A stretch of 64,000 nt of DNA from positions 1,242,501-1,306,500 of the forward strand of contig NZ_FPCH01000001.1 of assembly GCF_900116175.1 (NCBI RefSeq), in the 5' to 3' direction. This document shows, piece after piece, positions 8,247-33,820 of this stretch. Within the stretch, counting starts at the first letter, position 1. The number at the start of each line of letters is the position of its first letter. The translations under genes and the position numbers were made by a program. The notes beneath the pieces are model-generated. The model was not told where the DNA came from and made no database searches. It was given only the letters and a program-made list of their open reading frames with translations. This stretch comes from Hyphomicrobium facile. GTDB lineage: Bacteria > Pseudomonadota > Alphaproteobacteria > Rhizobiales > Hyphomicrobiaceae.

Positions 8247-8323
<77 letters not shown>

Positions 8324-8355: not shown

Positions 8356-9639
8356 TCATTCCGACTCTGCGGTCGATGCTTCATTCCGACTCTTGGCCGC
8401 GGATTGTTCTCGATTTTGATTGCTTTCGATCCAGGCGCGACGGCGCCGTGCGGCGGTGACGCGCTGGGTCTCAGTCCGCTTCACATAGAGCCTCGCGGCT
8501 TCCGGCGTTTTGTGCCCCGAGAGTGCCATGACGCCCTGCTCTGTAAGTTCAGCATCGCCGAGTTCCGTGAGGCCGCCATGCCTGCAGGCGGCCAATGTGA
8601 GATCACGCGCAAGTTTGGCTTTCGTGGCGGCCTTTCGTACTCGCGCGCGGGCATCGCGCATTTTGAATGGGCGAGCTGGCTTCGATTTTCCCCTTTTCGG
8701 CATCATCAACACGACAGGAACGCCGAGGCGGTCCAAGCCCTCGAGATATGCTGTCAGCTCTGGGAACAGAGGGCCATCTTCATCTGAAAGCGGCAGCCAC
8801 ACGAGTTCACCCGTCTTGTGGTGAAGGATACGAACCGCATCTGGTCGTTCCGTTGGACGGTAATCCGTCCAGGTGAGATGGCCGGCTAAGACATTTTCGG
8901 GGCGTTGATGCCATTCGAAACAAATCAAGGGCACAGCAGCGAGATGAATTTCGCCCACTGCAATGAGCGCCTTGTGGAGCGCATAGGCTTCCTCGCGCGA
9001 GGCGGGTCGTGTCGTGCTGGTGTTGTAATCGAGTTCAACCCCTCGGAACGGATTTTCGGAAGGAATGGTCTTTGGATAGAGCCGATGGACGGCGTCCCAC
9101 GCTCTTGCCATGATAGTGATGGCCAGGTTTGCAGTTCGGAGACGTCGCTCGACCCGTTTTCCCGGTTGAAGTTTGGCGTAGAGCGTATCTACCGCCCGGG
9201 CGCTCATTGAGGTGGCCTTGAGTTGACCCAGCCGTCCGCCGTCCTTCGTTTGGTAGAGCAAAACTAGGTCGAAGACTTTTTGATATTCAAGGCGCGATCT
9301 GGCTGAAACCTTTTCCCAAGCCCGGCTGCGTTTATAGCGCTCGACGAGCCAATCGAGCGAGCCCATGTCACCGCGTGCGTCAAGATCCGGGGGCGTCTCT
9401 GGTCGCAATCGCCAAGCATCGAGATGATGATTTAGAAGTTCGGCGCGCGCGATCGCTCCAGCATAGCTGTTTCCAAGAGATTGGCGATGAACTGGGCAAC
9501 CAGCTTTTAGATCCCGGGTGGCCGGCGCCCAATAATAACAAATGCCGCTTCCACCCAGCTGTTTGGCGACCATATAGCGAGGCCAATTCGCCGGCTTCAA
9601 AGTAGATCTGCGACGTCGACGCTTTTGAGGGTTTTGCAT
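8356..9639 (-). CDS. int: Tyrosine recombinase / integrase of the island
   Basis: Site-specific recombinase expected to integrate and excise the island at tRNA-Lys. In 427 residues it has a basic N-terminus, a SAM-like arm domain (about residues 85-190) and a C-terminal catalytic domain. The catalytic arginine is probably in WHQRPENVL, the lysine in HHKTGE, the second arginine and histidine in ACRHGG, and the C-terminal GHKTPEAARLYVK holds His and the nucleophile Tyr. The usual first H of HxxR appears to be alanine, a tolerated variant. It reads towards the tRNA and ends 33 bases from it. The ATG at 9639 overlaps the upstream gene by 43 bases; a later start cannot be excluded. Confidence 0.93.
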   Translation of the reverse strand: MQNPQKRRRRRSTLKPANWPRYMVAKQLGGSGICYYWAPATRDLKAGCPVHRQSLGNSYAGAIARAELLNHHLDAWRLRPETPPDLDARGDMGSLDWLVERYKRSRAWEKVSARSRLEYQKVFDLVLLYQTKDGGRLGQLKATSMSARAVDTLYAKLQPGKRVERRLRTANLAITIMARAWDAVHRLYPKTIPSENPFRGVELDYNTSTTRPASREEAYALHKALIAVGEIHLAAVPLICFEWHQRPENVLAGHLTWTDYRPTERPDAVRILHHKTGELVWLPLSDEDGPLFPELTAYLEGLDRLGVPVVLMMPKRGKSKPARPFKMRDARARVRKAATKAKLARDLTLAACRHGGLTELGDAELTEQGVMALSGHKTPEAARLYVKRTETQRVTAARRRRAWIESNQNREQSAAKSRNEASTAESE

Positions 9640-17472: not shown

Positions 17473-17927
17473 TGATGCCCCCACTCAGCGGAATGAGTGG
17501 CGGATTAAGCCTCTGGCATCAAGCAACCGACCGATTTTCTTCGGTGACATGATTGAGGCAGCTACTTGCTGTGGCGGACCTGTGGCCGTTTGGCCTCAGA
17601 GAACTGTCGCCTTCGCCGATTACCGACTGGCTCTTCCTGGCCCTTACAGCGACGGCCTTCCGAAATGTTGGCAGTCCTTCAGGACCTCAAAGAGACCAAG
17701 CGATCTAAAGTCTGCTTTCTCGGTATTGCTGTCTCCTGATCGTGACCGTAATGGCGAGGAAGCGGAAGTCGCTCTTAGTCGACGATTAGCATCAATTTGG
17801 CTGCGCCGAACGGCCGCTGTTCGCCCCGAACCTGGCGAACTGAGCGGTTGCAAGTGGTACACACGTCGGAGCTTGGTACACATCAGGGCCATCACGTCAT
17901 TGTTGCTGCCCGCGTCATTCGCGTAAG
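17473..17927. other. Intergenic region between the two helicase genes
   Basis: 455 bases. Open frames exist on both strands but lack motifs and ribosome binding sites. It could hold a promoter for the 1169-residue helicase gene, which would make it a separate unit from the upstream three-gene operon. Confidence 0.4.
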
Positions 17928-20900
17928 CTAGGCTCTGACCCTCATCGGGCTGAGATTGATCTGCAGCTCAGCCACGATGGGCTCCCGCTCTTGTTCGGGG
18001 ATCTCTTTAAGCAGATAGGCGATCAAGTCCTCCTGCTGACTCTGACCAAACACCATCCGATAAATGGCCAGGGCTCGGCGCAAATCGTGCAACCTCGCGG
18101 CGTCACGACTGAAGGGGAGGGCCGGGACATGGCGCTCGATATGTGCGTCGCCGGCAAACAGCCAATAGGGTTCGAGGTCGTTGCGGCCTGGTCCTCGTTC
18201 GCGGGCGGCAATGTCGAAGGCCGTATGCCAGACGTCGGGGCCTGCAGCGCGTAATGCGGCTAGGCCATGCGCGGTTGCGACGTTCTTGCGGATCGCATGC
18301 CCCTTATAGCGGTGAACGCGCCCCTCACGTTGCTCTAGATCGACCGGGTTCGAGGGCAGGTTCCAATGTGTGATGGCGTGGCAGTAGTGATGAAAGTCCA
18401 GTCCTTCCTGGCCGACCGAAGTCGAGGCGAGGACGAACGGCCAGAATGGCGAGTTGAATGCGGCGCGAACGCGTTCTTTCCGGGTTACACCGGAGTCGTC
18501 GAGTGCGCCCGTCTCCTCGTCCGATTGCTGGTCGCCAAAGCGCATGGCAAAGCGGTTGCGAAGGCGTTCGGGCTTCACCTGCACAGATCGGGTGTAGGGT
18601 GGCGCGCTGATAGCATCGATGGTGATGTTGGCTGTGCGGATGGTCAGCGCTTCGATGATGGCGTTGGAGAGGGATCTCGCAACCTCTCCCGCCGATCGGT
18701 CGCTGGTCTCGGATCCTTCCTGGAGCAGGTGCGCATACTCATCGAGAACTGCCTGCAATCCTCCTGCATGCGCGTAGGCGAGTGCCATTTTCCAATAGGG
18801 CTCGTCCGTCATCACCGCACGGACGAGCTCGATCACCTCGGGATGATTGAAGAGCGACAGAAAGGCGTGGCCAACCCGGCCGGCCGCCTCACGCACACTC
18901 ACACCCTCCATGGAGCATCCACCACCTCTGCGACTAAACGCTCTGAGGGCTGCAGTGGCCGGCCCCGAAGATGCGGATAGCGCCAACACTTCACAGAGAT
19001 CGTCGGGCTTCCGGCCGAGCATCGTTGCTCCTGAACGCACAGCAGCGATCGTATCCCGCGCGAAGTGGACGTGGTCTGCCCAGCGGCCGTCGTCCTCGGC
19101 CTCGTCGTTCGACTTGCTCAATCCCCAGGTCTTAGCGAGCGCGGAGTTCGTCCACCACGCGCTGGAAGCGACCGAATATTGTGCCTCATCGAGCAGCATG
19201 GGGGCTAGCCAATACCATCGCTCGTCGGCAGGGCCTGCGTGGTCCGCGACAATCTCAAGTGTGGAGAGAAGCTCGGAAACTTTGCGCGCAAGCCGATCTC
19301 GCATCTCGGCAGCTGATACCACCTCTGCCGCAGCGAGGGCCAGAGGGTCACAGGCCGTTGCCAGTGTCAGAGAAGGATAGACGAGCAGCAGAAAAGGAAG
19401 ACCGGACGGACGGCCCGCAGAATAGCTGAATCGGAGGAGGCCACGTTGCTTCAGGCGATCGTCTTGCGTGACCTTGGAGCGCGGCGCCGTCGCCCGCATC
19501 ATCTGGCGTTCGGCTTCATAGGACAGCATCGATGCCAGGGCCCTCGGGACCATGTGCCATGCCGAGAAGACGAGGCGCTTGGTGACATTCTGCAATTCCG
19601 GCGCCGAGTATGGACCATCAAGATCGTAATGGCGCAGCGAGGGCGGCAACCAGAGCAGGCGCCACATGCCACGTCCCACGGTCTCCTCGACCAGCCCCCG
19701 CAGTCGCGCATTCGCGGGATCGATCTGTTGGTAGTTGGCGAGGCGTGCCGCGTCGATGAAGCAGTCGCCATGTCTGCGAACCAGCTCAATCAATTCGCGC
19801 TGCTGATCCCATGCCTTAAAGGACTTCTTGAGCTTGTAGTCGTCCATGAAGTTGAAGAGATAAGGCGATGATTTCCAGTACTCGACAATATCGCCCTCCT
19901 CGATCAGATCGGCAATCGCCTGGGCTCCAAGATAACCGCGAACATCGTGCTCCTTGAGCGGTACGTTCGGCGGGCTGACCTCCCGCAGCATCCGCGGACT
20001 GCCTGGAAAAGTGTTTCGCTCTGTTCGCGCGATCGTCCGCCGCAATCGCGCTTCGAGGGCCCTCACGGCGGTGGTCAGCTTGGACATTCCGTTCGGTTGC
20101 ATGACGTCGACGAGCGCGGCGCGATAGTCGGCGAGCAGCTCCTCGATCTCGTCCGACGTCCCATTCTCCAGAAAGCGGAGCGTGGACAAAAAATCACTGT
20201 AATGGTCGTCGCCGGTCTCGTGATGCAACGACAGGGCGCGGTAGGGCGTCGCGGACAGAAGCAGGACCCTGGCGCCGAGCTCCTGATTGGACTGAAACAA
20301 ATCCCGCGCGAGGTCGCCCGCCTCATTGTCGTCTTTGAGCAGATGGCTGAAGCGCTGGAATTCATCGAGAATGATCAGGTCTGGTCGTATGGAAGTCAGG
20401 CAAACCCTGGCCAGCAGCTGCCTCATGTCCCCAAGCCAGCGCGTGCGCTCCTGGGCCTCCTCCACCGTCGGTCGCGAGTTGCTGCGGGCAAAGACTTCGC
20501 AAAGTGCGTCGAAGCGCCGCTTGAGATCAGCTGCTTTTCGTTTCCGATCTTGAGCGATGGACTGCTCGAGTGTCGTAGTAAAGTGCGTCCTGATCTCGGG
20601 ATTCACTCGGTCATGATCGAAGCGAGCCAAGTGAGCCTGGAACCTGTCTGCCCCAGCCTGATTGCGCAGGACATGGAGCGCCGCCTTGCGCCCATTGAAT
20701 TGCCAAACCTCATCGAGCAGCGCGTACAGCAGCACACGCTCGTCGTAGCGGCCTCCGCCCTTGGATTGCTCGAACGAGGTGGAGGGGGTGAGCGCGATAA
20801 AATTGACCCGATTGGCTGCCATCATCTTCAACTCGAGCGGCAGCAGCGTCAAACGCGTGGCCTGCGCCGCATCGGCAAGCTGTGGGATGCGCATCCGCTT

Positions 20901-21152
20901 AATGTTCTGCCGTGCGATGTCGGCGTTCGAGCAGACATAGAGAATGTTAATCTGGTGCTGGGTCCGGCTCAGATGGGAGATCGCCTTCGCGATCACGCCT
21001 TTGGCGATCAGGGTCTTGCCCAGCCCGACCTCGTCGGCAACGAGAAAGCGAGCGCTCGAGCCTTCCTCGTAGAGGCGCGCGAAAGCGTAGTCGACCGTTG
21101 CCCGCTGAAAGTCCTTCAGTTTTGCCAATGTGGAGGCGGGGTCGTGCCACAT
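17928..21152 (-). CDS. SF2/SNF2-type helicase
   Basis: 1074 residues. ATG 21152 lies two bases after the PLD gene stop and behind GAGGAA, which is a better start than the longer frame to 21200. ADEVGLGKTLIAKGV near residue 39 is the ATP-binding loop, LIILDEFQRF the DEAD-box equivalent, LLLSATPYR motif III, and STSVGQEGLDFHHY...WNLPSNPVDLEQREGRVHRYKGH motifs V-VI. This pattern is typical of SNF2-like translocases in defence systems. Forms one operon with the PLD and DUF6361 genes (overlap or two-base spacing). Confidence 0.88.
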   Translation of the reverse strand: MWHDPASTLAKLKDFQRATVDYAFARLYEEGSSARFLVADEVGLGKTLIAKGVIAKAISHLSRTQHQINILYVCSNADIARQNIKRMRIPQLADAAQATRLTLLPLELKMMAANRVNFIALTPSTSFEQSKGGGRYDERVLLYALLDEVWQFNGRKAALHVLRNQAGADRFQAHLARFDHDRVNPEIRTHFTTTLEQSIAQDRKRKAADLKRRFDALCEVFARSNSRPTVEEAQERTRWLGDMRQLLARVCLTSIRPDLIILDEFQRFSHLLKDDNEAGDLARDLFQSNQELGARVLLLSATPYRALSLHHETGDDHYSDFLSTLRFLENGTSDEIEELLADYRAALVDVMQPNGMSKLTTAVRALEARLRRTIARTERNTFPGSPRMLREVSPPNVPLKEHDVRGYLGAQAIADLIEEGDIVEYWKSSPYLFNFMDDYKLKKSFKAWDQQRELIELVRRHGDCFIDAARLANYQQIDPANARLRGLVEETVGRGMWRLLWLPPSLRHYDLDGPYSAPELQNVTKRLVFSAWHMVPRALASMLSYEAERQMMRATAPRSKVTQDDRLKQRGLLRFSYSAGRPSGLPFLLLVYPSLTLATACDPLALAAAEVVSAAEMRDRLARKVSELLSTLEIVADHAGPADERWYWLAPMLLDEAQYSVASSAWWTNSALAKTWGLSKSNDEAEDDGRWADHVHFARDTIAAVRSGATMLGRKPDDLCEVLALSASSGPATAALRAFSRRGGGCSMEGVSVREAAGRVGHAFLSLFNHPEVIELVRAVMTDEPYWKMALAYAHAGGLQAVLDEYAHLLQEGSETSDRSAGEVARSLSNAIIEALTIRTANITIDAISAPPYTRSVQVKPERLRNRFAMRFGDQQSDEETGALDDSGVTRKERVRAAFNSPFWPFVLASTSVGQEGLDFHHYCHAITHWNLPSNPVDLEQREGRVHRYKGHAIRKNVATAHGLAALRAAGPDVWHTAFDIAARERGPGRNDLEPYWLFAGDAHIERHVPALPFSRDAARLHDLRRALAIYRMVFGQSQQEDLIAYLLKEIPEQEREPIVAELQINLSPMRVRA

Positions 21153-21154
21153 GA

Positions 21155-22993
21155 TTATGTATTCCTCGCACGCTCGGCCGTCTGCCAGATTGGCTCCCAA
21201 ATCTGATTGAACTCGGCGCTGAGCAGTGCAGAGCTGGTGCTTTCCCGACGCAGCACGTCGATCACGGAGTTCACGCGTTCCAATTGATCCGGCGATCTGT
21301 GCAGTGCACGAAGCATGGTTTCAACCAACCGGGTCTCCGCCATCGTCTTGGACGACTGGGCACCGGTGCCATCCCGGATCAGTTGCTGAATATGATGCGA
21401 CGAGAGCTCGCCCCCGTCGCCAGCGGCCAAGAGGAACAGGATGTAGCGCAACAGCTGCTCTCGACTACTGATCATCGATCGCAGTACGCGATCCTGCCGA
21501 TCCTCCGGTGCGCCCTCCATGGGCAGATCGAGCACGAACTCGCAGGTCATCGGCTTACCGTTGAGTTTGGCTGTGATCTCGATGCCGAGCAGCGGCGTCA
21601 AACCTTCGAAGGAGACAGCGCGGAATGAAAGTGGAGCGCTCAAGTCCAGGGCACGATCAGGCGGTAGTGTGATCAACCGCGCCTTAGCGTCGATCTCGTT
21701 CGGGAGGATGGACGGCGCTTTCCAGACAATCGCAACGTCGAACCGATCCGGCTCTTGTCCGGTGGCGACGACGACGCGACCACCAGCGACTGAGATTGCT
21801 CGTTTGGCGACACGAACAAGATCGTCAAATTGTCGAAGGGCAGGATCGGGTGCAACGCTGACAGTCGCAGCCTCGTAGGGCTTCAAAAGATCAGCGAATA
21901 GCAACTCGCCCTGCACCTGACGCAGCAGAACATCAACGCCGACGTCGCTGCGCGGCCCCGTCAATTGGACCATGAACTCCACATTATGCCGGAGCGCATG
22001 GTTCGTGGCGTTAAACGATCCGCTGAAGACGTGACTTTCCCAGCCCTGGTCCCTGACGAAAACCTTGGCGTGAAGCCCTTCGAGGGACTCTAAGACCTCT
22101 TCGCGCGGCAGCGTGTCGTCTTCCGATTCCGATTGGAGATCGGGGAGGAGCTGAAAGGCGCTTTTGCACGCCTGCAAGGTCGATGGCGGCAACTCCTGCA
22201 AAGCCTCGAGCCGGGAGACGACGTGCGTTTCCGATGAGAGGTCTTGGAAACCCTTGACGACATCGTTGGAGAGGAACGGTGCGATGATCAGGGATTTGCG
22301 GGCGGCTTGCTCGAATGCCCGCGTCGGTAGGCCCTCAAGCCCGCCGGTCCAGAACGCAAGCGCCTTGAAGGGCTTGGGAACGTCAAATCTCACGCGTCGC
22401 AACTCATCCGACAGCCGCGCTACTCCCGCTGCGTGGGCCCGTGTGAGCGGTCGGAGCGCGAGTTCGGGAAGTGCCCCGATCAAGTCCGCCAAGGGGTGGT
22501 TGGCCGCAAACGCGAGTTCTCGCTCGGTCAACACGCCATCCAGAATGACTGCGGTGTCCCATGACCGATCGAACGTGAGGTTTCTGCTGAGGCAAAGCAC
22601 GCGGTACCGAACGCTCGCGTCCCCCTCCTGAAAACGCAGAGCCCAAACTTTGGGATGGAACACGCCCTGCTCATCCGGGGGCTGAACGCCATAGATTGAT
22701 TGTTCGAGGAAGGTGACGAGGGGTGGATACTTGGCTGGCAGACGGATCTGGCCGGACTGGCAGAACACCGCATACTTGTCGCCATAGCGGCGCAGGGCCT
22801 CGAGCAAAGCCAACGGATCTGCGGCAAGCTCTCCGTCGGGCTTTTGCCAGTCGCAGAACGCAAACGACAGCGGCAACAGCAAGGCGCTGACGAGATCGAG
22901 GGAGAAGGTCGTCCCAACGGCAAAATCCAAGCAGCATCCGACCGGCGGCCGCAACAACTCGATAAGATGCTCACGATCCCCCGGCTTAAGCAT
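21155..22993 (-). CDS. Phospholipase D-like (double HKD) protein
   Basis: 612 residues starting at ATG 22993, behind GGAGG at ideal spacing, and overlapping the DUF6361 stop by eight bases. Two half-sites typical of PLD-fold nucleases are present: FHPKVWALRF...LSRNLTF near residue 130-160, and LHAKVFVRD...VFSGSFNATNHAL...NVEF near residue 310-345. Family members in such operons are predicted nucleases rather than lipases. Coupled upstream to DUF6361 and downstream to the SF2 helicase. Confidence 0.82.
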   Translation of the reverse strand: MLKPGDREHLIELLRPPVGCCLDFAVGTTFSLDLVSALLLPLSFAFCDWQKPDGELAADPLALLEALRRYGDKYAVFCQSGQIRLPAKYPPLVTFLEQSIYGVQPPDEQGVFHPKVWALRFQEGDASVRYRVLCLSRNLTFDRSWDTAVILDGVLTERELAFAANHPLADLIGALPELALRPLTRAHAAGVARLSDELRRVRFDVPKPFKALAFWTGGLEGLPTRAFEQAARKSLIIAPFLSNDVVKGFQDLSSETHVVSRLEALQELPPSTLQACKSAFQLLPDLQSESEDDTLPREEVLESLEGLHAKVFVRDQGWESHVFSGSFNATNHALRHNVEFMVQLTGPRSDVGVDVLLRQVQGELLFADLLKPYEAATVSVAPDPALRQFDDLVRVAKRAISVAGGRVVVATGQEPDRFDVAIVWKAPSILPNEIDAKARLITLPPDRALDLSAPLSFRAVSFEGLTPLLGIEITAKLNGKPMTCEFVLDLPMEGAPEDRQDRVLRSMISSREQLLRYILFLLAAGDGGELSSHHIQQLIRDGTGAQSSKTMAETRLVETMLRALHRSPDQLERVNSVIDVLRRESTSSALLSAEFNQIWEPIWQTAERARNT

Positions 22994-24209
22994 CGCCGCC
23001 TCCAAGGCCATCGAAGATATCGCCGATCAAAATCTGAGAAATCCGCCAGCGGTAGTCGAGCGGAGCAATCCCACTGTCCCCGCCCCAGAGTTCGCTGGCT
23101 CGCGGGTTATTGATCCGGGCCAACTGCTTTTTGATTTGGCGCTCACGGTACGTGACGAGATTGCGCGCTACTTCCGAGTGGGCAATATCGCGTGGGCCAG
23201 CATCGAGCACAAGCTGCCACCATTCGTTGACGAAACTTCGTGTGTTTGGCGTGATGCGCGCATTCTGGTCGAGGACCACTGTCCAAAACTCCCCGTTTTT
23301 CCAATGTTCGAGCGACTGCCGACGCTCGGCGATCAAGTCGCTCCATTCCCTGAGGAGTAGGCAGTAGCGGTCCCGACGCGTGTCGTTATTTGTCTGTTCG
23401 GCCAGGATGAGATTGTAGAGCAGGGGTGCCCCGTGCATCAGCGCTGAGAAGTTTCGGGCATGGTCGAGCTGAACCGACAGCTTGCCGTTGAGGCGCTGGT
23501 AATACGGATGCTCCCAGGCAAACGTCATGTCATCTTCCCGCTTGCCGTGCCGGACCAAAGCGGCAAGCAAAGATCCCGAGCAGCCTGGGCTGAGGGTGAT
23601 TCGCTCGGCGAGGTATTTCGCCTCGCGTCGGCTCAGACGCAGAGAGCACGTCGTCAGGAAGCCGGGCGGAGGCGAGATCAGCCCACCATGCCAGTTGGGG
23701 GCGATTAGGTCATCGTGCTCGCTTCCGCGCTCGGACAGGCGCCCGGCGTGACGCGCTTGACCTTGATAATACCGATCGAGGCTACGGTAGTATTGAGTTT
23801 GAGACCCTATGAATGAGCGGATGCCCCAAACGCCGAGGCCCTGCCAATAGACGCTACTGGCCAGTCGCTTCAGGTTGCTGCGGGCGAGTCGGCCGATATT
23901 GCCCGCGTTGTCATTCGAAGCCTCGATGTGCTCGATTAAGTCGATTTCGGTGTTGCGTCCGCGGGCCTCGATCTGAGCTGAGGAAACCCGACGCCCCTCG
24001 AGATGTTGATAGATCCAGGGGATGAGCAGAAAGTAGCGCGCGCGCGTCATGATCGTCGACGTGCCGGGAAACAGCATGTCGGCGAAGGCATCGCGGATGG
24101 AGCCTATCCCGAGCTCGTCGACCGTCTCCGACTCCCGGAAGAGCTCGATGACGTCGAGCATCTTGCGACGCTCACGCTCCGAGTAGTCAAGCCAGACGAA
24201 TGATGACAT
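22986..24209 (-). CDS. DUF6361-type protein
   Basis: 407 residues beginning SSFVWLDYSERERRK, with TRARYFLLIPWIYQHLE near residue 57, the combination that marks the uncharacterised DUF6361 family as I recall it. No catalytic motif is apparent. It heads the operon DUF6361-PLD-SF2 helicase, an arrangement I associate with defence islands but cannot match to a named system. The ribosome binding site is weak. Role unknown. Confidence 0.65.
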   Translation of the reverse strand: MSSFVWLDYSERERRKMLDVIELFRESETVDELGIGSIRDAFADMLFPGTSTIMTRARYFLLIPWIYQHLEGRRVSSAQIEARGRNTEIDLIEHIEASNDNAGNIGRLARSNLKRLASSVYWQGLGVWGIRSFIGSQTQYYRSLDRYYQGQARHAGRLSERGSEHDDLIAPNWHGGLISPPPGFLTTCSLRLSRREAKYLAERITLSPGCSGSLLAALVRHGKREDDMTFAWEHPYYQRLNGKLSVQLDHARNFSALMHGAPLLYNLILAEQTNNDTRRDRYCLLLREWSDLIAERRQSLEHWKNGEFWTVVLDQNARITPNTRSFVNEWWQLVLDAGPRDIAHSEVARNLVTYRERQIKKQLARINNPRASELWGGDSGIAPLDYRWRISQILIGDIFDGLGGGDA

Positions 24210-24494: not shown

Positions 24495-25904
24495 TCATCC
24501 AGTATCTGAAGGGCCATTTTCCTTGAGTTCCGCAAACTTGACCGCCATCGTCGGGTTGTCCCGAGTCAGCTTCTTGATCGTAACGTCCTGCGCCTTGTCG
24601 TTGGCAAGACGAAGGTTCCGATCGGCGCCAATCAGGGCTTCCCTCGTCTTCTGTAGGTGGTCGATCGACTTGTCGATCTCATCGATCGCCGTTTGGAAAC
24701 GCCTGGACGCGAGGTCAAAGTTCTTCGCGAAGCCAGTCTTGAACGTCTCGAGTTGGGTCTCGAATTGAGTGATGTCTATATTCTGCGCCTTAACGAGTGC
24801 CAGCTCCGACTTGTACTTGAGGGAGTTTAGTCCCGCATTCCGCAGAAGCGTGATGATTGGAAGAAAGAACTGCGGTCGGACGATGTACATCTTCGGGTAG
24901 CGGTGAAACACATCGACGATCCCGGTGTTGTAAAGCTCACTATCGGGTTCGAGCAGGGATACTAAAACCGCGTACTCGCACCCCTTCTCTGTACGATCCC
25001 GGTCGAGTTCCTTTAGGAAGTCCTCGTTCTTATTCTTCGTCGCGGTGCGATCACTCTCGTTCTTCATCTCAAACATGACCGAGATGATCTCATTGCCAGA
25101 CTCATCTGAGTCGCGAAAGATGTAGTCGCCCTTGCTGCCAGACCGCGCATCGTTATCCTTCTCGAAATATGCCCTCGGAAACGCCATCGCGCGAATGCGG
25201 TTGAACTCAGTCTCGCAGTGCTGCTCAAGGGTTTCGCCGACCATCTTCGTCGACAGGCGAGCCTTCATCTCCCGCAGGCGCTCGATCGCGTCGTCGCGAT
25301 CCTTGATCTGGGTTTCGTACTTATCCTTGAGCGCGTTCTCTGAAAGTTGCTTCTCAAGCTTTGCTAGCTCAACGTCGCTCTTAAGTTCGTCGCGCTCCCT
25401 TTCAACCGCATTGATCGCTTCTGTTATCGCAAGTTTGTGAGCCACTTCGTTGGCGGCGAGTTGAGCCTTAAGGTCTTGGATTTCGCTATCTTTGGCGGTG
25501 GCCGCTTTTTGTAGCTCGTTCGCCGACCTCGCCTCACTTAACTCTAAAGCAGCTTTCTTATCCTGCTCAGCTTGCGCAAGTTCGCTGGCCAGCGAGTCAC
25601 GCTCTTTTTCGACTGCGCTTACCGCTTGGGTGACGGCGAGCCGGCGTTCAACCTCTCCAGCATCGAGCTGCGACTTCAATTCTTGTATCTTAGTGTCCTT
25701 GGCTGCAGTCGAACTCTGCAATTCGCCGGTGAATTTCGTCTGCGCAAGTTCGATGGCGGACTGCTTGTCGCGCTCGGCCAGTTCGAGCCGCTCGTGCAGC
25801 TGCTTCTCGAACTCGCTATTGTGGACTTGCTTCAGGATGTCCGCATACCCGGCTTCGTCGATCTTGAATGCCTTACTGCAGTGGGGGCAGATGATTTCGT
25901 GCAT
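24495..25904 (-). CDS. DUF2130 family protein with long coiled coil
   Basis: 469 residues. The N-terminus [22 protein letters not shown] is the zinc-finger-like start seen in DUF2130 proteins. Residues about 30-230 are a heptad-rich coiled coil with internal near-repeats ([41 protein letters not shown]). The C-terminal domain has [10 protein letters not shown] and [28 protein letters not shown], which is reminiscent of a restriction-endonuclease-like fold (D, ExK). It stands between the two larger cargo blocks with gaps on both sides. Function unknown; nuclease activity is inference. Confidence 0.75.
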
Positions 25905-26084: not shown

Positions 26085-26500
26085 TCACCACCAGCTCGTT
26101 AAAGAAGACCAGACCGCCAAGATCCTTGCGGTAAGCTTGCCCCGCGATCCGACAATCGACGGTCGTGCGGCGATGGCGTCGCGTCGGTCGCGTGCCTGCA
26201 CGGCCGCGATTTGCTTCGCATTGAAAGCACCCGCCCAGCGGATTTGTCCACGTTCGATCCAATAGTGCGAGCGGCACGGAAGGCTCCAATTCCCGATAGA
26301 TGGATACAGCGAAACTCTGTCACCGTCTTCGACCAATCTCCATTTGGCGGGGTTGAGAGGGTCACCACCTCATGGCCGCAACCGCAACAGCACAAGTGCA
26401 TCGCGGTTGCGAAGCGGCTGGAGACGTACAGCACACCGACCTCAAGCTTATCGGGCACTGAATCTATGTGCTTAATTTTAAGGCGGGTGATACGTGTCAT
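26085..26500 (-). pseudogene. DUF6527-type protein, frameshifted
   Basis: Starts at ATG 26500, overlapping the E1-like gene stop by four bases (ATGA). Frame one reads MTRITRLKIKHIDSVPDKL and a cysteine-rich LCCCGCGHEVV, then loses sense near 26360. Another frame continues smoothly as LNPAKWRLVEDGDRVSLYPS, then SLPCRSHYWIERGQIRW, to a stop at 26085. Adding one C to the CCC run at 26359-26361 (minus strand) joins them into about 138 residues with Cys-rich and C-SHYW blocks typical of DUF6527 partners of multiubiquitin genes. It is either a true one-base deletion or a sequencing error. Confidence 0.65.
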
Positions 26501-27669
26501 TCGTCACCCTCGGTAACGATATCGCCCGACGCAATGGAGTAGCCGCGGTAGGAAGCCTTGCGCATGTCGTGATAGATGCCGACGAGCTGCTTCCAGCGAA
26601 TGACGGCGAGCGCGGCATTGAGCGCGTTGAGCTCGGCGGACTGGATGTTTGCCGAGTAGGCGTTGAGACCGCCGTCATCAGTGGCATAGGAGATGCGCGC
26701 AACCGCCGCCTGTCTCGTTTCTGGCGTGCTGCATACAGTCCTGACGATGCCGCCGAGCTTATCGTCAGTGACGAGAACACCCATGCCGACCTCGATGAAG
26801 CATGTGCCGCTGGAAGTGAGCCGTTCGACGGCCTTGCGCTTGGCGTCACCGGTGTCCATGCAGACGAATACGAAATCCAGCCCGTCGAGAAGATGCAGGT
26901 TGCCATCGTCGATGTTGATGTCGTGCAGCACGATGCCGCGGTGCATCCTCCTGTAGATGGCACCGAGATAATCGGTCTTCTTAGGTTTCGATGTGAGGTC
27001 CGCAAGTGATGGCGCGCCCGGCGAGCGGAAGGCGTTGTGGTTTAGAAAGAGATCGCCGTCGATGACCCGTATCTCGGCGACCAAGGTCTTGGCGACGAGA
27101 TCGAACACGTAGCTGCCGGTGCCGCCGGCACCGAGGATACCAATCTTGAGGCCCGCGACGCGCGCGTTGATGGCAGCGATGCCGGCCCGGCTCGATGCCG
27201 TATCGGCATACTCGAATACGCTGTCGCCTGGATCGGCGGGGATCGCAGGAAAGGTCTGCGCTTTCGCGTTCGGGTCGATCATGGCGGCCTCGCCTGCGAT
27301 GCGGCCCACATAGGTCCTCACCTTGTGATGATAGTCGCGGTAGTCGGCCTTGGCAGAGAACGTGTGATCGATCTGGAGGCCTTCTGCGAGTTGCTCTACG
27401 TTCGAGGCGTTGGCAATCGTGGTGATCTTCGTGCCGCTCGCGTGGCACGGGTGTTCGCCGATCCAGTAGGCGATGTGCGAGTGCGGCTTAGAGGCCGTCT
27501 CGCCTGCGAGATCAAGCGGCATCACGAGGATGCCGCTCGAAACGGACTTGTTGCTGGTGACGAAGGGAACGTCACGGACGAGTAGGTGACCGCCCATGAT
27601 GGCAAGATCGAAGCCCTCATCTTCGAGGTGCTGCAGATCGGGACTACGAGCGATTAGTCGGCGTGACAT
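26497..27669 (-). CDS. E1-like ThiF adenylyltransferase with N-terminal extension domain
   Basis: 390 residues from ATG 27669, overlapping the multiubiquitin gene by 26 bases. The C-terminal half is a ThiF/E1 Rossmann domain: ILGAGGTGSYVFD (GxGGxG at about 180-185), VIDGD near 203, NHNAFR with the conserved N and R near 210, and FVCMDTGDAKR near 268. There is no CxxC zinc pair. The N-terminal half (about 1-150) has SHIAYWIGEHPCHASGT, whose cysteine 75 could be a thioester or transfer site; this resembles the domain called DUF6791 in databases. Predicted to activate the neighbouring ubiquitin-like protein by adenylation. Confidence 0.85.
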   Translation of the reverse strand: MSRRLIARSPDLQHLEDEGFDLAIMGGHLLVRDVPFVTSNKSVSSGILVMPLDLAGETASKPHSHIAYWIGEHPCHASGTKITTIANASNVEQLAEGLQIDHTFSAKADYRDYHHKVRTYVGRIAGEAAMIDPNAKAQTFPAIPADPGDSVFEYADTASSRAGIAAINARVAGLKIGILGAGGTGSYVFDLVAKTLVAEIRVIDGDLFLNHNAFRSPGAPSLADLTSKPKKTDYLGAIYRRMHRGIVLHDINIDDGNLHLLDGLDFVFVCMDTGDAKRKAVERLTSSGTCFIEVGMGVLVTDDKLGGIVRTVCSTPETRQAAVARISYATDDGGLNAYSANIQSAELNALNAALAVIRWKQLVGIYHDMRKASYRGYSIASGDIVTEGDE

Positions 27670-28315
27670 CGAATTCCATCCCATTCTTGATCTTGACGGA
27701 CTGGCCCTCAAGGAGAGTGCCGGAGGCGTTGGCTTCTGGGCCGCGGGTGAACTGGATCGTGAACTGCACGCCTTCCCCCGTCGGCGGCTTCTCAAAGGCA
27801 AGCAAGATCAGCTCCTCGAAGGTGAGGCTCTCCTTGGAGGTAGTTTTGCGCCTGGTGTTGACGACGATGACGAAGGTGCGGGCCCGAGTGACGAGGTGCT
27901 CGGTTCCTTGCTCGTCGAGCCGCACGATGCTGCCCTTTTCGATGACCGTCTCGGTGCCGTCATGGCGGCGCTGCACGATGTCTTTTCCGATGTCCGCCGG
28001 TCCGAGCAGTTTTTCGAGGATGGAGCCCGAAATGCTAGGCTCTCCCCAGCCGAGCTGGCGGGTGTCGAGCGTGAAGCGGTAGAGGCGGTCGGAATGAAAG
28101 GCGATGAACTTGCGCGTTTCGTTCGCCGTATGCTCCGTCAGACGCACATCCTCGAAGTCGCCATTGGGCATGATGCCGAGGAGAATGTGCTCATCCGGCG
28201 GGATCAGCCCGACGGCGGCGAGAATCTCGGCGCCGGTCGGATTCGGGTGATCGATCTTGACGGTCTTGGCGTCGAGTGTAGCGTCGGTCACGCTGTAGCG
28301 GTGTTGTTGAGGCAC
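27644..28315 (-). CDS. Multiubiquitin-domain protein (three beta-grasp repeats)
   Basis: 223 residues with a GTG start at 28315, eleven bases after AGGAG. The sequence divides into three related beta-grasp units, about residues 5-75, 76-145 and 146-223. Each opens with a hydrophobic strand (YSVTDATLD, YRFTLDTRQ, TFVIVVNTR), has a helix with a hydrophobic face and closes with a GxxV-type strand. This is the architecture of the bacterial multiubiquitin family. The C-terminus ends TPTNRS, not Gly-Gly, so trimming or a different conjugation chemistry is needed if it is transferred to targets. First gene of a coupled trio with the E1-like and DUF6527 genes. Confidence 0.85.
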   Translation of the reverse strand: MPQQHRYSVTDATLDAKTVKIDHPNPTGAEILAAVGLIPPDEHILLGIMPNGDFEDVRLTEHTANETRKFIAFHSDRLYRFTLDTRQLGWGEPSISGSILEKLLGPADIGKDIVQRRHDGTETVIEKGSIVRLDEQGTEHLVTRARTFVIVVNTRRKTTSKESLTFEELILLAFEKPPTGEGVQFTIQFTRGPEANASGTLLEGQSVKIKNGMEFDVTPTNRS

Positions 28316-28408: not shown

Positions 28409-31400
28409 TCAAATTTTTGCCGAGATCGCGCCATCGGGCAGTGCGCCGCAATGGAAGAGGTGCGGGCAGCGTGGACAACGTCGATCGACCGGTTGGCGGA
28501 TAAAGGCGCCTTGGCGAATGTTGGCGACGGCGGTTTCAGCTTTGACCCGACGGTTGGCCAGGACCTTGGGGGAGATCTCCGCGGGCGTGGTGGTCGCGGA
28601 CGTCAGATGCACGACTTCGACGACGGTCTGGGGGCCATACGCGGCGCGGGCCGCGAGCAGCAGGACGGTATAGTCCAGCCCGTCAAATTCTTCCGAACTC
28701 TTGCGTCCGGTCTTCACCTTCCTCACCGCTACGGCACCATCGGCTCTGCGCACGATGTGATTGGGAACGGCAGTGACACGGCTTTGACCGAGCGCGAGCG
28801 TCAGCGGCTTTGGCTCGACGAGGGGGCCGGCCGTGCGTGAGCCGAGGAGGTACGAAAGCAGCTCCCCTGCGATACGCCGATAGTCAGATGCAAAGGGATG
28901 ATCGACAGGCCCGTTTGCCTGCCAGGCGGCATCGAGTTGCGTTTCGGCGACGCCGGGCTCGGGGTTGCTGGCCGGAAAGGATTCCGAGACCCAATCGAGG
29001 ACTGATTGCAAAGCGTCATGCATGCGAGTGAAGGCCGTCTCGGAGCGGCGGCCTCCGAGTTTGAGGACATGCGTGTAGAAGAAACGCCGCGGACAATCCT
29101 CGAACTGCCCGAGTTGGTGATCGGTGAGCGCGGGCGGCGTGGTCCAGGTGATGGCTACATCCTCGATAGCAGGCGATGGTCCGGCAATGGAACGCGGCGT
29201 CCGCACCATGTCCAGATGTGCGGTGAACCGATCCAGAAAGAGTGACGGATTGCGCTTTTTGCCACCTGGCTGCAGCGACGAGGCCGACAGGTGGAGCTCG
29301 TCACGTGCGCGGGAGAGTGCGACGAACAGGACGCACTCCTGCTCCTGGTCGTGACCCTGTTTGAGGACTTCGAGGCCAGGGAGATTCTCGGCGCTGGAGA
29401 TTAGCCCGTCTGGTGGCGGACACCGGGGCGCCCGATTGGGAAGGGGCATCTTGCTTGCGATCAGGTCGGGCAGGTGGACGATCGGGAACTCGAGCCCCTT
29501 GCTGCCGTGAATGGTCATCAGGTGCACGGCGTCGATGGACTGCGCCGCGGCGGGAAGCTGCCGCAGCTCGCGGTCGTCTGAGATGAGGATGAGCCGGCGG
29601 ATTCGGTCGAGGAAGCGCCGGATCGGCGCTCCCCGGGCGGACGGCTGCACTTGTGCGAAGGCCAGCAGCTGCCAGATCGCGATGGCTTGCATACGGGATG
29701 CAACGTCGCTTGCGCCGTGCAGCGTGCGTGCGATTCCCGGCTTGTCGAGGACAAGTGCAGTCAGCACGTCCCATGGGCGCGAAGCTAAGTCGAAAGAGGA
29801 GAGAGCATCCGCAAGGTCCGCGATAGCCTGGCGCCCTGCTGCAGAGATATGCGGAACGGCTGTCGCTATCCGTCGCCAGTCGAGTGGCCTTGCCGACGTC
29901 TCGCGCAACATGCGCGTCAGCGTTTGGACGTCGGCGAGCGGCATACGGCTCGCATCCAGCGTCGCGACCGAGACGAGCGCCGGTGCAAAGGGGTCCTGGA
30001 GGAGCGAAAGGAGAGCGAGCAGGGATTTGATCTCTGGTCGTTCGAACAGGCCGCCAAGATAGAGGACAGGGATTCCGCGGGCTTCGAGACCGGATGCAAA
30101 CTGAGCGAGGCGTCCGTTGCTGACGCAAAGCACAGCCTGGTCGCGATAGCTCGCGCCGGTTGTCTTGGCATCCTCTATCGCTGCGGCTACGACGCCGATC
30201 TCATCTTCGGGAGTGCCGGCGACGCGAAGCTTGGGCCGTACTCCGCTGGCGCCGCGGTTTGGATCGAGGTCAACCGGCAAGGCTGAATGAGACGCCAGCA
30301 TGGTCCGGGCGAACGCCTGGAACGTAGTGATGATCTCCTGCCTCGATCGGTAATTGACCGCAAGCGGCGCTGCCTCTGCGCCAGAAAAGTCTGTTGCGAA
30401 GGACGCCATGTTGGCCGAGGAGGCACCACGAAAGCGGTAGATGGACTGCCGGGCGTCGCCTACGACCCAGATGCGATTACCGGGCTGGCGCAGCTGCTGA
30501 AGCAGTCGCACGCTTGCTCGGTTTACATCCTGGTATTCGTCGACGATGATGTGACGATGGCGGTTTGCGAGCACGGCACGGGCATCTGCGTCGTTTTCCA
30601 CGAGCCTTACAGGCATCGCGACGAGGTCGCCGAAGTCGACCATGCCCTTCTCGTTCAGGATCTTCTCGTAGACCTCGTAGACCTGGGCGACCTCCACACA
30701 TTTTTCGGCCCGTTCGCGAGCGTCGGGATCGCTCCCGGCCTTCGCAAGCATGGCATCGGCAGACTCGCGATACCGCTTCGCATCGGCGACTTCGTCCTTG
30801 GCACGCGAGATGCCGGCGAGGATATCGGCGAGAACGAGAGTCGGGTCCCATAGATTGCGGAAATGGCGCAAGGGGAGCCGTGCGAGCTCGTCCTCAAGCA
30901 ACTCGATCGCCTCGCTGCGATCAATTAGGCGGGGAGCTTCAGCCAAACCCAGGCGCTCGTGGAAGCGCCGAATGACGTCGAGGCCGAAGGAATGGAATGT
31001 TCCTGCCCAGATACCGGCGGCAGCTTCGGGGTGCTTGCGTTCCAGGCGGTGGATCAGCTCGGCTGCAGCCTTGTTGGAAAAAGTAAGCGCGAGGATCGAC
31101 TCCGGCGCGACGCCATCATGCAGAAGACTATCGATGTGATGAACGAGCGTCTGCGTCTTTCCCGTGCCTGGGCCGGCTTGCAGTTGGAATGCAAGTCCGC
31201 GTTTGGCAGCGGCAGCGGCCTGGGAGTGATCGAGCGGTTTCTCGGGCTTGGCCTCAGTGGAGGAGTCCGCCGACGGCACCTCTGGGAGCAACAGGGCATC
31301 GAGCAGTTGCTGCGTGATGACTTCGAGAGGTGCCTTCTGACGTGAGGCGATGGCCTGACGCGATAAGCTCTGATCAAGATAGAGGCCACGAAGCCATGTG

Positions 31401-31825
31401 CGCGGGAGCAGAAATTCGCGCGCAAAGAGATCCATACGAACTTCGCGGCGTTCGCGGCGCGAATAATCGACCACTCGCTCGGCGGCAGACATGGCTTCGG
31501 TAGAATTGGGTTGGTTGAAATGAGAGACCACATCATCGCGGTCGCCGCCTTCGAGCACGACATGGCCGATCTCGTGGGCGATGAGTAACGCCCGCTGGAA
31601 ATCGGTCGCGTCTTTCACAACCAGGATATGCGCAGCCTGGTGATCGAACGATGCCCTGCCGCCCTTGAGCCCGGGATGTTCGGGCGCGACGAAGTAGACT
31701 TCGAGATTGCGCCGATCAACCTCAGCCATGGCGAAGGCGAGCGGCTGCCCCGGATCGTGGCCAGCAGCTACGGCCTGAGAGTGGAGGCGGGCGGCCGCCT
31801 GACGTGCAGTCTCGGCGGCATCCAT
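28409..31825 (-). CDS. ImmA/IrrE metallopeptidase - UvrD helicase - Cas4/AddB-like nuclease fusion
   Basis: 1138 residues in three parts. Residues 1-180 are an ImmA/IrrE-type zinc peptidase with HEIGH at 84-88 and a downstream E..LFAREFLLP element. Residues about 195-850 are a UvrD/Rep helicase: GPGTGKT at 218-224, IIVDEYQDVNR, VNYRSRQE, MTIHGSKGLEFP and LFVALSRARDEL. The end is a PD-(D/E)xK-like module with CPRRFF and a late CPRCPHLFHC, the four cysteines that bind Fe-S in Cas4/AddB relatives. It starts three bases after the 198-residue gene and lies 93 bases before the multiubiquitin gene. Probably a regulated DNA-processing effector; the peptidase may cleave a partner protein. Confidence 0.85.
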   Translation of the reverse strand: MDAAETARQAAARLHSQAVAAGHDPGQPLAFAMAEVDRRNLEVYFVAPEHPGLKGGRASFDHQAAHILVVKDATDFQRALLIAHEIGHVVLEGGDRDDVVSHFNQPNSTEAMSAAERVVDYSRRERREVRMDLFAREFLLPRTWLRGLYLDQSLSRQAIASRQKAPLEVITQQLLDALLLPEVPSADSSTEAKPEKPLDHSQAAAAAKRGLAFQLQAGPGTGKTQTLVHHIDSLLHDGVAPESILALTFSNKAAAELIHRLERKHPEAAAGIWAGTFHSFGLDVIRRFHERLGLAEAPRLIDRSEAIELLEDELARLPLRHFRNLWDPTLVLADILAGISRAKDEVADAKRYRESADAMLAKAGSDPDARERAEKCVEVAQVYEVYEKILNEKGMVDFGDLVAMPVRLVENDADARAVLANRHRHIIVDEYQDVNRASVRLLQQLRQPGNRIWVVGDARQSIYRFRGASSANMASFATDFSGAEAAPLAVNYRSRQEIITTFQAFARTMLASHSALPVDLDPNRGASGVRPKLRVAGTPEDEIGVVAAAIEDAKTTGASYRDQAVLCVSNGRLAQFASGLEARGIPVLYLGGLFERPEIKSLLALLSLLQDPFAPALVSVATLDASRMPLADVQTLTRMLRETSARPLDWRRIATAVPHISAAGRQAIADLADALSSFDLASRPWDVLTALVLDKPGIARTLHGASDVASRMQAIAIWQLLAFAQVQPSARGAPIRRFLDRIRRLILISDDRELRQLPAAAQSIDAVHLMTIHGSKGLEFPIVHLPDLIASKMPLPNRAPRCPPPDGLISSAENLPGLEVLKQGHDQEQECVLFVALSRARDELHLSASSLQPGGKKRNPSLFLDRFTAHLDMVRTPRSIAGPSPAIEDVAITWTTPPALTDHQLGQFEDCPRRFFYTHVLKLGGRRSETAFTRMHDALQSVLDWVSESFPASNPEPGVAETQLDAAWQANGPVDHPFASDYRRIAGELLSYLLGSRTAGPLVEPKPLTLALGQSRVTAVPNHIVRRADGAVAVRKVKTGRKSSEEFDGLDYTVLLLAARAAYGPQTVVEVVHLTSATTTPAEISPKVLANRRVKAETAVANIRQGAFIRQPVDRRCPRCPHLFHCGALPDGAISAKI

Positions 31826-31828
31826 TGC

Positions 31829-32425
31829 TCAATCCATGAAAGCTCTGAGTTTTTGTTGCTGCTCATCATCGAGGTCGGAGTTTCCTATGGCGTCCGCAAA
31901 CGCGATGCGTTTGTCCGCTCCGGGCTTCTGGTCGGACTTGAAACGCTCGCTGGCTGCGACCATCGGCGGTCGGGCGAGATCATCCATCACGGCCGACACC
32001 GTGCTGGACAGCTCCCTGGCGAGTAGCTCGACAAACCGGCGAGGGATGGTGGTGGCATCGATGATGCGGTCGCGCAGCTGAACTAGGAAAAGGGTGTTGA
32101 CGCCTATGCGTTTGGCAAGCGCCCGGAATTCGGCCGGCGGCAGAGCGGCGATCAGGCTTCCGGCGGCACCGAGACTCTTAGTCTCCAGCGAAGTGGCGCT
32201 CGACCTGAATGTCTCCCAGGCACGGTCGACGGTAGCATCCTGCGGTGAGCAGCAGGCGTCCTCACGAAGCGGAACGATCATCAGCTCAACGGCGAGATCA
32301 GCGAGTGCGCCGGCGTACCCCGGGTAGCGACGAACGTATTCTGCAAGCGTAGCTGGGCTTGCATCGTTTTCGCAGGAGAAGGCGAGCAAGACGTCCTCTT
32401 GGGCTGGACTGGTCTGACTGGTCAT
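31829..32425 (-). CDS. Hypothetical protein between sigma factor and peptidase-helicase genes
   Basis: 198 residues, mostly helical and acidic in composition, with no motif I recognise. The ATG overlaps the sigma-factor stop by four bases (32422-32425) and its own stop is three bases from the next start, so it is translationally coupled to both. By position it could be an anti-sigma factor or the substrate of the HEIGH peptidase, as ImmR is for ImmA; that is inference. Confidence 0.6.
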   Translation of the reverse strand: MTSQTSPAQEDVLLAFSCENDASPATLAEYVRRYPGYAGALADLAVELMIVPLREDACCSPQDATVDRAWETFRSSATSLETKSLGAAGSLIAALPPAEFRALAKRIGVNTLFLVQLRDRIIDATTIPRRFVELLARELSSTVSAVMDDLARPPMVAASERFKSDQKPGADKRIAFADAIGNSDLDDEQQQKLRAFMD

Positions 32426-33201
32426 GACGCATACTCCCCTGCAAGGGCCTTTCTGAGCTTGAAGATCGCGCGGTCGCGTCGGTTGCGGACGGTTTTTTCA
32501 GTGCAACCCAACAGCTTGGCTATTGTCACGGCACCAGGTTCCTTGCCGTCGATCGGTATGCCTTTGAGCATGAGGCCGATCACTGTTTTCTCGTCGTTCG
32601 GCAAGTGGTCAATCGCAGCGACGAGGTCAGACCGGAAAGCCGGATCATCGAATTTTTCGCGCGATTGGCCAAGGAACGCTTCTGCTGCCCGCTCGACGGC
32701 GGCCGTCGGCTCGCCGGTGTTGGCGTCGTCAATCGGCTCGGTCCTGAGGCGCTCAGGACCGAGTTTGCGAAGCACGTCGACGCGCAAAGCTGCCAGGGCC
32801 TTATCGAAGACGACCTCGAAAATGTCGAGCCGATCGCCACCCTGGGTTCGGTCTTGCGCGATCATTGTGGCGAACCTGCTTGCAATTTCGGCGCGGATCT
32901 CGTCGACGTTGCGGTATTGAGAGGTTGAGATGGCGTTGCGCGACAAGGATTCGACGCGCGCGAGCAGGATGCGGAAGAGTGCCTCGAAGTGGCTGTCGCG
33001 GTTGTCCTGGCGCGTCGCCCGGATCGCGTGGAGGAGTACCTCAGACGGCAAATATATCGGGTCGTGTCGGTTTGTAATGCTGAACCGCGAGAGCAACGCG
33101 GCACGGTCGAGCATGGCGACCTCGTCGATGAGCTGGTCGACGGTGGTCTGCCGGCGGTAGCGCACGCCATTGGCGTTGGTCTTGGTCAGTGGGGGCGGCA
33201 T
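32422..33201 (-). CDS. Sigma-70-like transcription factor of the island
   Basis: 259 residues. The C-terminal part shows a sigma region 4 helix-turn-helix: DHLPNDEKTVIGLMLKG, then GAVTIAKLLGCTEKTVRNRRDRAIFKLRKAL. The N-terminal part (about 40-140), with LFRILLARVESLSRN and an acidic stretch, plausibly forms region 2. It heads the six-gene minus-strand series that ends with the ubiquitin-like genes, so it probably controls that operon. It differs from the usual compact ECF factors by its longer N-terminus. Confidence 0.75.
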   Translation of the reverse strand: MPPPLTKTNANGVRYRRQTTVDQLIDEVAMLDRAALLSRFSITNRHDPIYLPSEVLLHAIRATRQDNRDSHFEALFRILLARVESLSRNAISTSQYRNVDEIRAEIASRFATMIAQDRTQGGDRLDIFEVVFDKALAALRVDVLRKLGPERLRTEPIDDANTGEPTAAVERAAEAFLGQSREKFDDPAFRSDLVAAIDHLPNDEKTVIGLMLKGIPIDGKEPGAVTIAKLLGCTEKTVRNRRDRAIFKLRKALAGEYAS

Positions 33202-33769: not shown

Positions 33770-33820
33770 GCTGACTCTTAATCAGCGGGTCCACGGTTCG
33801 AGCCCGTGATCACCCACCAA
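33770..33820 (+). repeat. attR-like repeat: duplicated 3' part of tRNA-Lys
   Basis: A 51-base perfect copy of 8273-8323. The bases before it do not complete a tRNA, so this is the displaced 3' fragment that marks the distal end of the island. Confidence 0.95.

Follow-up and report, generated by a model that had tools for sequence, protein, structure and literature searches.

In this work we have analysed a cassette of three genes from Hyphomicrobium facile, which encode a ubiquitin-like protein (Ubl) built of several repeats (polyUbl), an E1-like protein and a protein of the DUF6527 family. The cassette lies in a stretch of 64,000 nucleotides (nt) of contig NZ_FPCH01000001.1, which we call the window and to which all positions below refer. 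Its features are the following:

27644..28315, minus strand: polyUbl gene, fourth of its operon; GTG start, 223 amino acids (aa), three beta-grasp repeats, C-terminus FDVTPTNRS
27644..27669, minus strand: Ubl and E1 genes overlapping by 26 nt
26497..27669, minus strand: E1 gene, fifth of the operon; ATG at 27669, stop at 26497, 390 aa; DUF6791 (about residues 10-157) followed by ThiF
26099..26500, minus strand: first half of the DUF6527 gene, sixth of the operon and broken; PF20137 positions 2-31, 22.8 bits (slightly below the cut-off, 23.6)
26085..26336, minus strand: second half of the DUF6527 gene, in another frame; PF20137 positions 31-63, 51.6 bits, E 8.9e-14

An earlier note, made from the sequence alone, had described the first gene as three beta-grasp repeats and the second as a ThiF/E1 domain with a cysteine-bearing N-terminal extension, and both descriptions hold. 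PF14452 matches the Ubl in three stretches (E 4.3e-34, Pfam), and in the Protein Data Bank (PDB) entry 9cd2 matches its residues 14-223 (E 2.8e-29) and entry 8u38, titled 'Ubl-BilA', residues 8-146. The E1 protein has a DUF6791 match (E 5.1e-49, Pfam) and a ThiF match (E 2.3e-06) which, at 27.4 bits, is just under the Pfam cut-off of 28.1; it belongs to NCBIfam NF004805/PRK06153 (497.9 bits, cut-off 352), and the cysteine in question is residue 75. The overlaps of 26 and 4 bases which the note had described are both present, the shorter at 26497-26500, and no E2 or JAB gene, likewise claimed to be missing nearby, was recognised by Pfam among the 19 open reading frames (ORFs) of the window which the scans for E2/JAB and CD-NTase covered. 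The third gene is DUF6527-like by its PF20137 matches, as proposed; however, it is split over two frames, a break which had been missed, and the note's end position, 26085, is where the second frame stops.

The survey of homologous loci for conserved order, suggested in the same note, was carried out on the best 80 of 504 relatives, to which all counts out of 80 apply. These loci are labelled by L-numbers, become 81 when the window is added, and include near copies, 75 of the 80 E1 sequences being distinct. In 80/80 loci the Ubl gene lies ahead of the E1 gene, which confirms that their pairing is beyond chance, and DUF6527 stands directly behind E1 in 79/80, the exception being L037, where it is 1.3 kb away. 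In all 81 loci the last 26 nt of the Ubl gene, its stop included, begin with a start codon (80 ATG, one TTG). Both genes were found by motif in 20 of 28 further loci, every one of which keeps this register; in the other eight it is kept by alignment in seven, and L151 has no upstream DNA. The residue at the overlap register is not a start in L010, L158 and L159. The tree labels of the loci name 14 phyla, and these labels were taken from record titles because many of the loci are contigs of metagenome-assembled genomes (MAGs). A 26-nt overlap in one register across 14 phyla is unusually strict, and the Ubl and the E1 protein may well be made as a translationally coupled pair.

It is well known that activation of the familiar ubiquitin-like modifiers takes place at a glycine, their C-terminal residue. 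The Ubl of the cassette ends in serine in 81/81 loci, window included; the finder behind this count required a final serine, and a separate listing without that requirement shows the same ends in 80/80. The serine end recurs in 19 of the 20 further loci in which both genes were found by motif (L026 has alanine) and in all seven loci placed by alignment. Among 24 PF14452 loci which were not selected via E1, 12/12 with DUF6791 have the serine end, and in the 12 without DUF6791 the ends vary, some of the frames picked there being fused, cut or wrong. Could the serine be a by-product of the overlapping E1 frame? We rejected this explanation, since the last Ubl codon begins with TC in 81/81 loci, whereas the E1 residue read across it varies within the CNT options (R, L or H, and P in L112).

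Across 87 E1 sequences G180, G182, G183, G185, D204, N212, R215 and K231 are invariant and D272 is kept in 85; we take the glycine loop, D204, N212, R215, K231 and D272 to be the adenylation residues. In the DUF6791 part H65, G71, P74 and G79 are invariant in 87/87, and C75 is kept in 85/87. One set of sequences, A3, consists of 61 of the 75 distinct E1 proteins and that of the window. Structure prediction, which the note had proposed as a check, gave an E1 fold: the AlphaFold2 model has a predicted local distance difference test score (pLDDT) of 91.6, and its best PDB fold match in Foldseek is BubCD (E 5.1e-13), with UBA5 and MccB next. BubCD is also the top PDB match of the E1 profile (E 2.5e-8, positions 166-300). 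Because about 250 of the 390 columns align, the fold match speaks for the E1 part; with the DUF6791 profile no BubCD entry of the PDB came up to an E of 10, and there was one chance match.

In DUF6527, residues H35, C37, C39, C41, C76, S78, H79 and Y80 are invariant in 61/61 sequences (set A4, 61 of the 73 distinct ones, from which L063, L037 and the window had been excluded beforehand). Intact relatives carry the signature C37-x3-C41, 34 residues, C76-x2-H79, in the numbering of L028, which is from Ancylobacter tetraedralis. The model of the L028 protein (pLDDT 89.9) has no PDB fold match, the best E being 0.59, and the profile finds no PDB sequence at E up to 10, but the model does match the viral protein A0A8E7FZU2 (E 7.4e-12, 53% identity). 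The tail of the operon proteins is aromatic and basic: in the last 24 residues of 78 distinct sequences, at least two Trp/Phe occur in 73 and the net charge is positive in 74. The hydrophobic moment of the last 18 residues exceeds the median of the sequence's own shuffles in 66/78, but exceeds 95% of the shuffles in only 15/78. The count of tryptophans as proof of the tail is weakened, as Trp occurs in the last 24 residues of 74/78 operon and 47/51 viral proteins, and near the end of viral DUF6527 it is often the end of the core. We would suggest that the tail binds a membrane or a partner.

The break in the window gene has no replacement elsewhere, as there is no further PF20137 match in the genome. 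L002 and L005, relatives from the same family, have an open core. A single open DUF6527 frame stands beside the cassette in 78/80 relatives, L063 being split and L037 distant; we therefore consider a programmed frameshift unlikely, although no slippery site was looked for with a tool. The split in L063, also between frames, was seen on a Mesorhizobium MAG contig with about 7-fold coverage according to its title. The window copy of the module is probably impaired by its broken DUF6527.

DUF6527 also occurs on its own. It was found at E up to 0.01 in three of 50,697 phage records (MW812339.1, LC667451.1 and PP511379.1), and none of the 50,697 has an E1 at E up to 1e-5. We collected 69 viral loci with DUF6527 (L160-L228), mostly without E1 or Ubl nearby; for 54 of them a complete frame could be called, 80-116 aa long in 47. 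E1 was found in four viral loci. In 51 aligned viral proteins without E1 nearby, H35, C37, C39 and C41 are kept in all, C76 is kept in 25, and S78 is replaced by alanine in 26. No neighbouring family recurs around viral DUF6527 in more than six loci. In bacteria, PF20137 is present in 10/372 genomes, four of which are not among the 7/385 genomes of the class with PF20590, a family of scattered occurrence.

The cassette forms the 3' half of a longer operon with six genes, which extends from 33201 to 26085, so that the 'compact' system of the earlier note is in fact one part of a larger unit. Its first three genes are:

32422..33201, minus strand: sigma-70-like gene, first of the operon, 259 aa; TIGR02937 34.9 bits (under the cut-off of 42.9), Sigma70_r4 also under its cut-off
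31829..32425, minus strand: gene for a 198-aa protein, second of the operon; no family match
28409..31825, minus strand: helicase-nuclease gene, third of the operon, 1138 aa; PF06114 E 1.8e-10, PF00580 E 9.7e-57, PF12705 E 7.4e-11

The third protein joins ImmA/IrrE, UvrD helicase and PD-(D/E)XK nuclease domains, and HExxH is present in the first 200 residues of 28/28 such helicases examined, that of the window included. The 198-aa protein has no match in Pfam, PADLOC, NCBIfam or PHROGs and no relative among the viral contigs. We delimit the operon in this way because relatives of these genes hold the same place upstream of the cassette, the helicase in 30/80 loci (two of them cut by the contig end), the sigma-like gene in 28/80 and the 198-aa gene in 23/80 (tblastn), and because plasmids pORIO2 and pAcsw19-2 carry six genes in the order of the window, the first annotated as a response regulator or as hypothetical. 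The length of the Ubl frame, from stop to stop, differs between the two forms: it is at least 251 aa in 30/30 helicase loci, while in the 50 helicase-less loci it is up to 150 aa in 31, 151-199 aa in seven and at least 200 aa in 12.

In an E1 tree of 94 rows, the window groups with L005 (support 100/99). This clade falls within a set of nine compact and two extended rows (100/98) which is separate from the main extended clade, and at least four changes between the compact and extended labels are forced on the tree, the 'compact' labels of loci from the genome search resting on short flanking DNA. The mean identity between the window and the main clade, compared with that between L040 and the other main subclades, is 45.8 vs 58.8 for the helicase, 46.7 vs 69.0 for E1 and 33.1 vs 62.1 for Ubl repeat 3, and the compact L028 is identical to the window in 59% of E1 and in 66% of Ubl repeat 3. 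The simplest reading of these sequences would be that the cassette was swapped under a helicase half. The module was found on 114 of 72,556 plasmids, 83 of which are mobilizable or conjugative.

Among the 50 helicase-less loci an ImmA/IrrE gene lies upstream of the cassette in 34 and downstream in none, 13 lack it upstream and three have too little upstream DNA, as judged with a model built from proteins of these same loci; Pfam matches back two of the examples and one neighbouring helix-turn-helix (HTH) gene. In 32/33 loci of the two main families the ImmA/IrrE gene is on the opposite strand. In L155 a DUF2188 gene (4429-4662) separates a cassette with a single Ubl from the divergent HTH and ImmA/IrrE genes, and by eye L022 has a similar frame; in L031, L037, L081 and L106 a regulator resembling an HTH-IrrE fusion is followed by a gene of ~165 aa, PIN-like by eye. 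A HATPase and winged-HTH gene pair, which resembles the CapK+CapS pair of PMC13373217, precedes the cassette in L032 and L099, and on pRsp8C3a WYL and RecB-like nuclease genes come before it and RmuC after it. Control by DNA damage through such regulators is described in PMC13373217 for Bub and other immune operons, where damage-activated CapW or CapH+CapP stand beside 219 of 544 Bub operons and CapK+CapS beside 59. As the operon is tied to helicase-nucleases and to regulators of the ImmA/IrrE, WYL and GHKL types, we predict that it answers DNA damage.

The operon is part of an island at a tRNA gene, as the note had recognised, and the remaining features of the island are these:

8273..8323, plus strand: left end repeat, in the 3' part of tRNA-Lys (8247-8322); exact 51-nt direct repeat
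33770..33820, plus strand: right end repeat, adjoining the sigma-70-like gene; exact direct copy of the left repeat over 51 nt, at a distance of 25,497 bp
8356..9639, minus strand: gene for an integrase-like protein, at the end of the island with the tRNA; Phage_integrase E 0.00016, with 22 bits below its cut-off (27.1)
13963-17484, minus strand: helicase gene, 1173 aa, with PLD and topoisomerase zinc-ribbon; MkoA-like in PADLOC, E 1e-56
17928-24209, minus strand: ZacC, ZacB and ZacA (PADLOC system ZacABC), on the island
24495-25904, minus strand: DUF2130 gene, on the island, directly behind the broken DUF6527

The 51-bp pair is the sole direct repeat of at least 30 nt found within 8200-34000. 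Partial or near copies of the end sequence elsewhere in the genome (G000:C2 near 166763, 209528, 212442 and 214915; G000:C4 near 454786) are possibly other tRNA-Lys insertions. The PADLOC E values are 2.6e-128 for ZacA, 9.6e-168 for ZacB and 0 for ZacC, and L048 and L051 also have relatives of ZacA/ZacB, 8-11 kb beyond the start of E1. The DUF2130 gene is present in 0/80 relatives; on pRsp8C3a the RmuC gene takes its place.

What could such a module do? On balance we favour a horizontally moving module for Ubl activation and conjugation, probably induced by DNA damage or phage, in which the C-terminal serine is activated. The DUF6791-ThiF protein would adenylate the carboxylate of this serine, an end which should need no trimming, in keeping with the missing JAB peptidase. 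The Ubl might then be passed on via Cys75 of DUF6791, or from the adenylate straight to the target. DUF6527, Cys/His-rich and probably metal-binding, with its aromatic, basic tail, may help to transfer, remove or localise the modifier, and the sensing and DNA-processing side of the six-gene form would consist of the sigma-like protein, the 198-aa protein and the IrrE-UvrD-nuclease. Several observations weigh against this reading. The ThiF part of the 87 E1 proteins has no invariant cysteine, the best being C270 in 53/87, and a relay through Cys75 would not be general, because this residue is His or Tyr in a divergent clade which keeps the cassette (L004, L010, L025, L026 and L157). Serine ends are also present in Ubl without DUF6791 (L011, ending in GGSS, L117 and L123). 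The window copy of DUF6527 is broken, and the family is also used outside Ubl operons, because there are viral copies without E1 and bacterial PF20137 genomes without PF20590. According to PMC13373217, Bub operons have not been shown to protect against phage. For the present module conjugation is a proposal, and so is the defence role for which the note had cited the tRNA-borne island.

The rival which survives best, rather unlikely in our judgement, is a DNA-repair or stress-response module which is not antiphage, the Ubl modifying repair proteins and the helicase-nuclease being a repair enzyme. The helicase-nuclease partner in the window and in 30 of the relatives fits this, as do the RecB-like nuclease and RmuC around the cassette of pRsp8C3a, and PMC13373217 itself leaves a repair role open for Bub. 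A mobile island with ZacABC-like genes, and the plasmid-borne and scattered occurrence of the module, argue in the other direction. Is the module in this genome just a decaying, functionless remnant? With DUF6527 broken, no second copy in the genome and the core open in same-family relatives, one might think so, but the other five operon genes are open and the second half of DUF6527 still reaches 51.6 bits, so that the break may be recent or an assembly error, or DUF6527 may be dispensable; we consider such a remnant unlikely. It is improbable that the Ubl is a scaffold without conjugation, whose end the E1-like protein adenylates or caps in the manner of MccB and whose three repeats form an assembling platform. 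MccB is among the best fold matches and its mechanism involves no Ubl relay, neither an E2 gene (19 window ORFs) nor an invariant cysteine in the ThiF part was found, and 9cd2 matches the whole window Ubl; moreover, Gong et al. in 2025 reportedly saw that a three-repeat bacterial Ubl can form calcium-dependent filaments. Against this explanation, the Ubl frame is too short for three repeats in the 31 helicase-less loci with up to 150 aa, Cys75 is kept in 85/87 and DUF6527 accompanies the Ubl-E1 pair in 79/80.

Within the conjugation reading which we favour, a more specific version remains tentative and is as a whole unlikely: a pathway which activates the invariant C-terminal serine without maturation peptidase or E1 thioester, with DUF6527 transferring or removing the modifier, and with phages having taken up DUF6527 alone as a possible countermeasure. 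A widespread Ubl family which ends in serine and has no trimming peptidase is a three-gene system in which the glycine rule is directly testable, and the DUF6527 copies of phages make it possible to study whether phages counter Ubl systems.

Finally, we compared the module with known systems. Against type II of the cyclic-oligonucleotide-based antiphage signalling system (CBASS) and the PADLOC E1-E2 models there were weak local matches only (best E 2.1e-05), no CD-NTase was among the PADLOC matches listed for the 19 ORFs (for one ORF, 25 of 52), and searches with Prok-E2_B and Prok-E2_D in 142 genomes each gave no matches, controls included, and are uninformative. MccB, the microcin C7 adenylating enzyme, shares the Rossmann E1-like fold and acts on a non-glycine C-terminus; its substrate, however, is a peptide and not a Ubl. 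The Bil system (BilABCD) is similar in having a Ubl with beta-grasp repeats, but the window has neither an E2 (BilB) nor a JAB (BilC) gene among the 19 ORFs by Pfam, and its Ubl does not end in Gly-Gly. By profile and fold, the nearest solved E1 is BubCD (PDB 9ea4, 9ea5, 9ea8, 9eae and 9eav), in which an N-terminal part also precedes the E1 part; the match is limited to the E1 part (profile 166-300), and PDB titles indicate a separate BubB, no counterpart of which was identified here, with no sequence search aimed at it. The same kinds of regulator are reported for Bub in PMC13373217.

The note had regarded the cassette as a conjugation system of a different kind. It is not a new kind, since Iyer, Burroughs and Aravind (2006, PMC1779556) had already predicted polyUbl operons with a non-JAB E1; they list them under the fifth type of operon (row 6e), and describe an uncharacterised domain which in some of its E1 proteins stands at the N-terminus instead of JAB. 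A literature search under DUF6527 or DUF6791 found nothing. Neither the six-gene form nor the fixed overlap, the serine end or the DUF6527 tail was found in the literature covered, which does not include the main Bub papers, and the row 6e passages of PMC1779556 name no helicase, sigma-like or IrrE gene, fixed overlap or serine end. The table there gives an inactive E2/RWD-like domain, not in every operon, and Pfam finds no E2/RWD family in the 19 window ORFs. Row 6e and the window have in common a Ubl of one to three repeats (three in the window), an E1-like protein with a non-JAB N-terminal domain (DUF6791 in the window) and a small companion with a Cys/His signature, which is C-x3-C-x(35-38)-H-x2-C in row 6e as against C-x3-C, 34 residues, C-x2-H here, split in the window. 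From position and pattern, we infer that domain X of the 2006 paper is DUF6791 and its protein Y is DUF6527, and the cassette belongs to the polyUbl class which that paper predicted.

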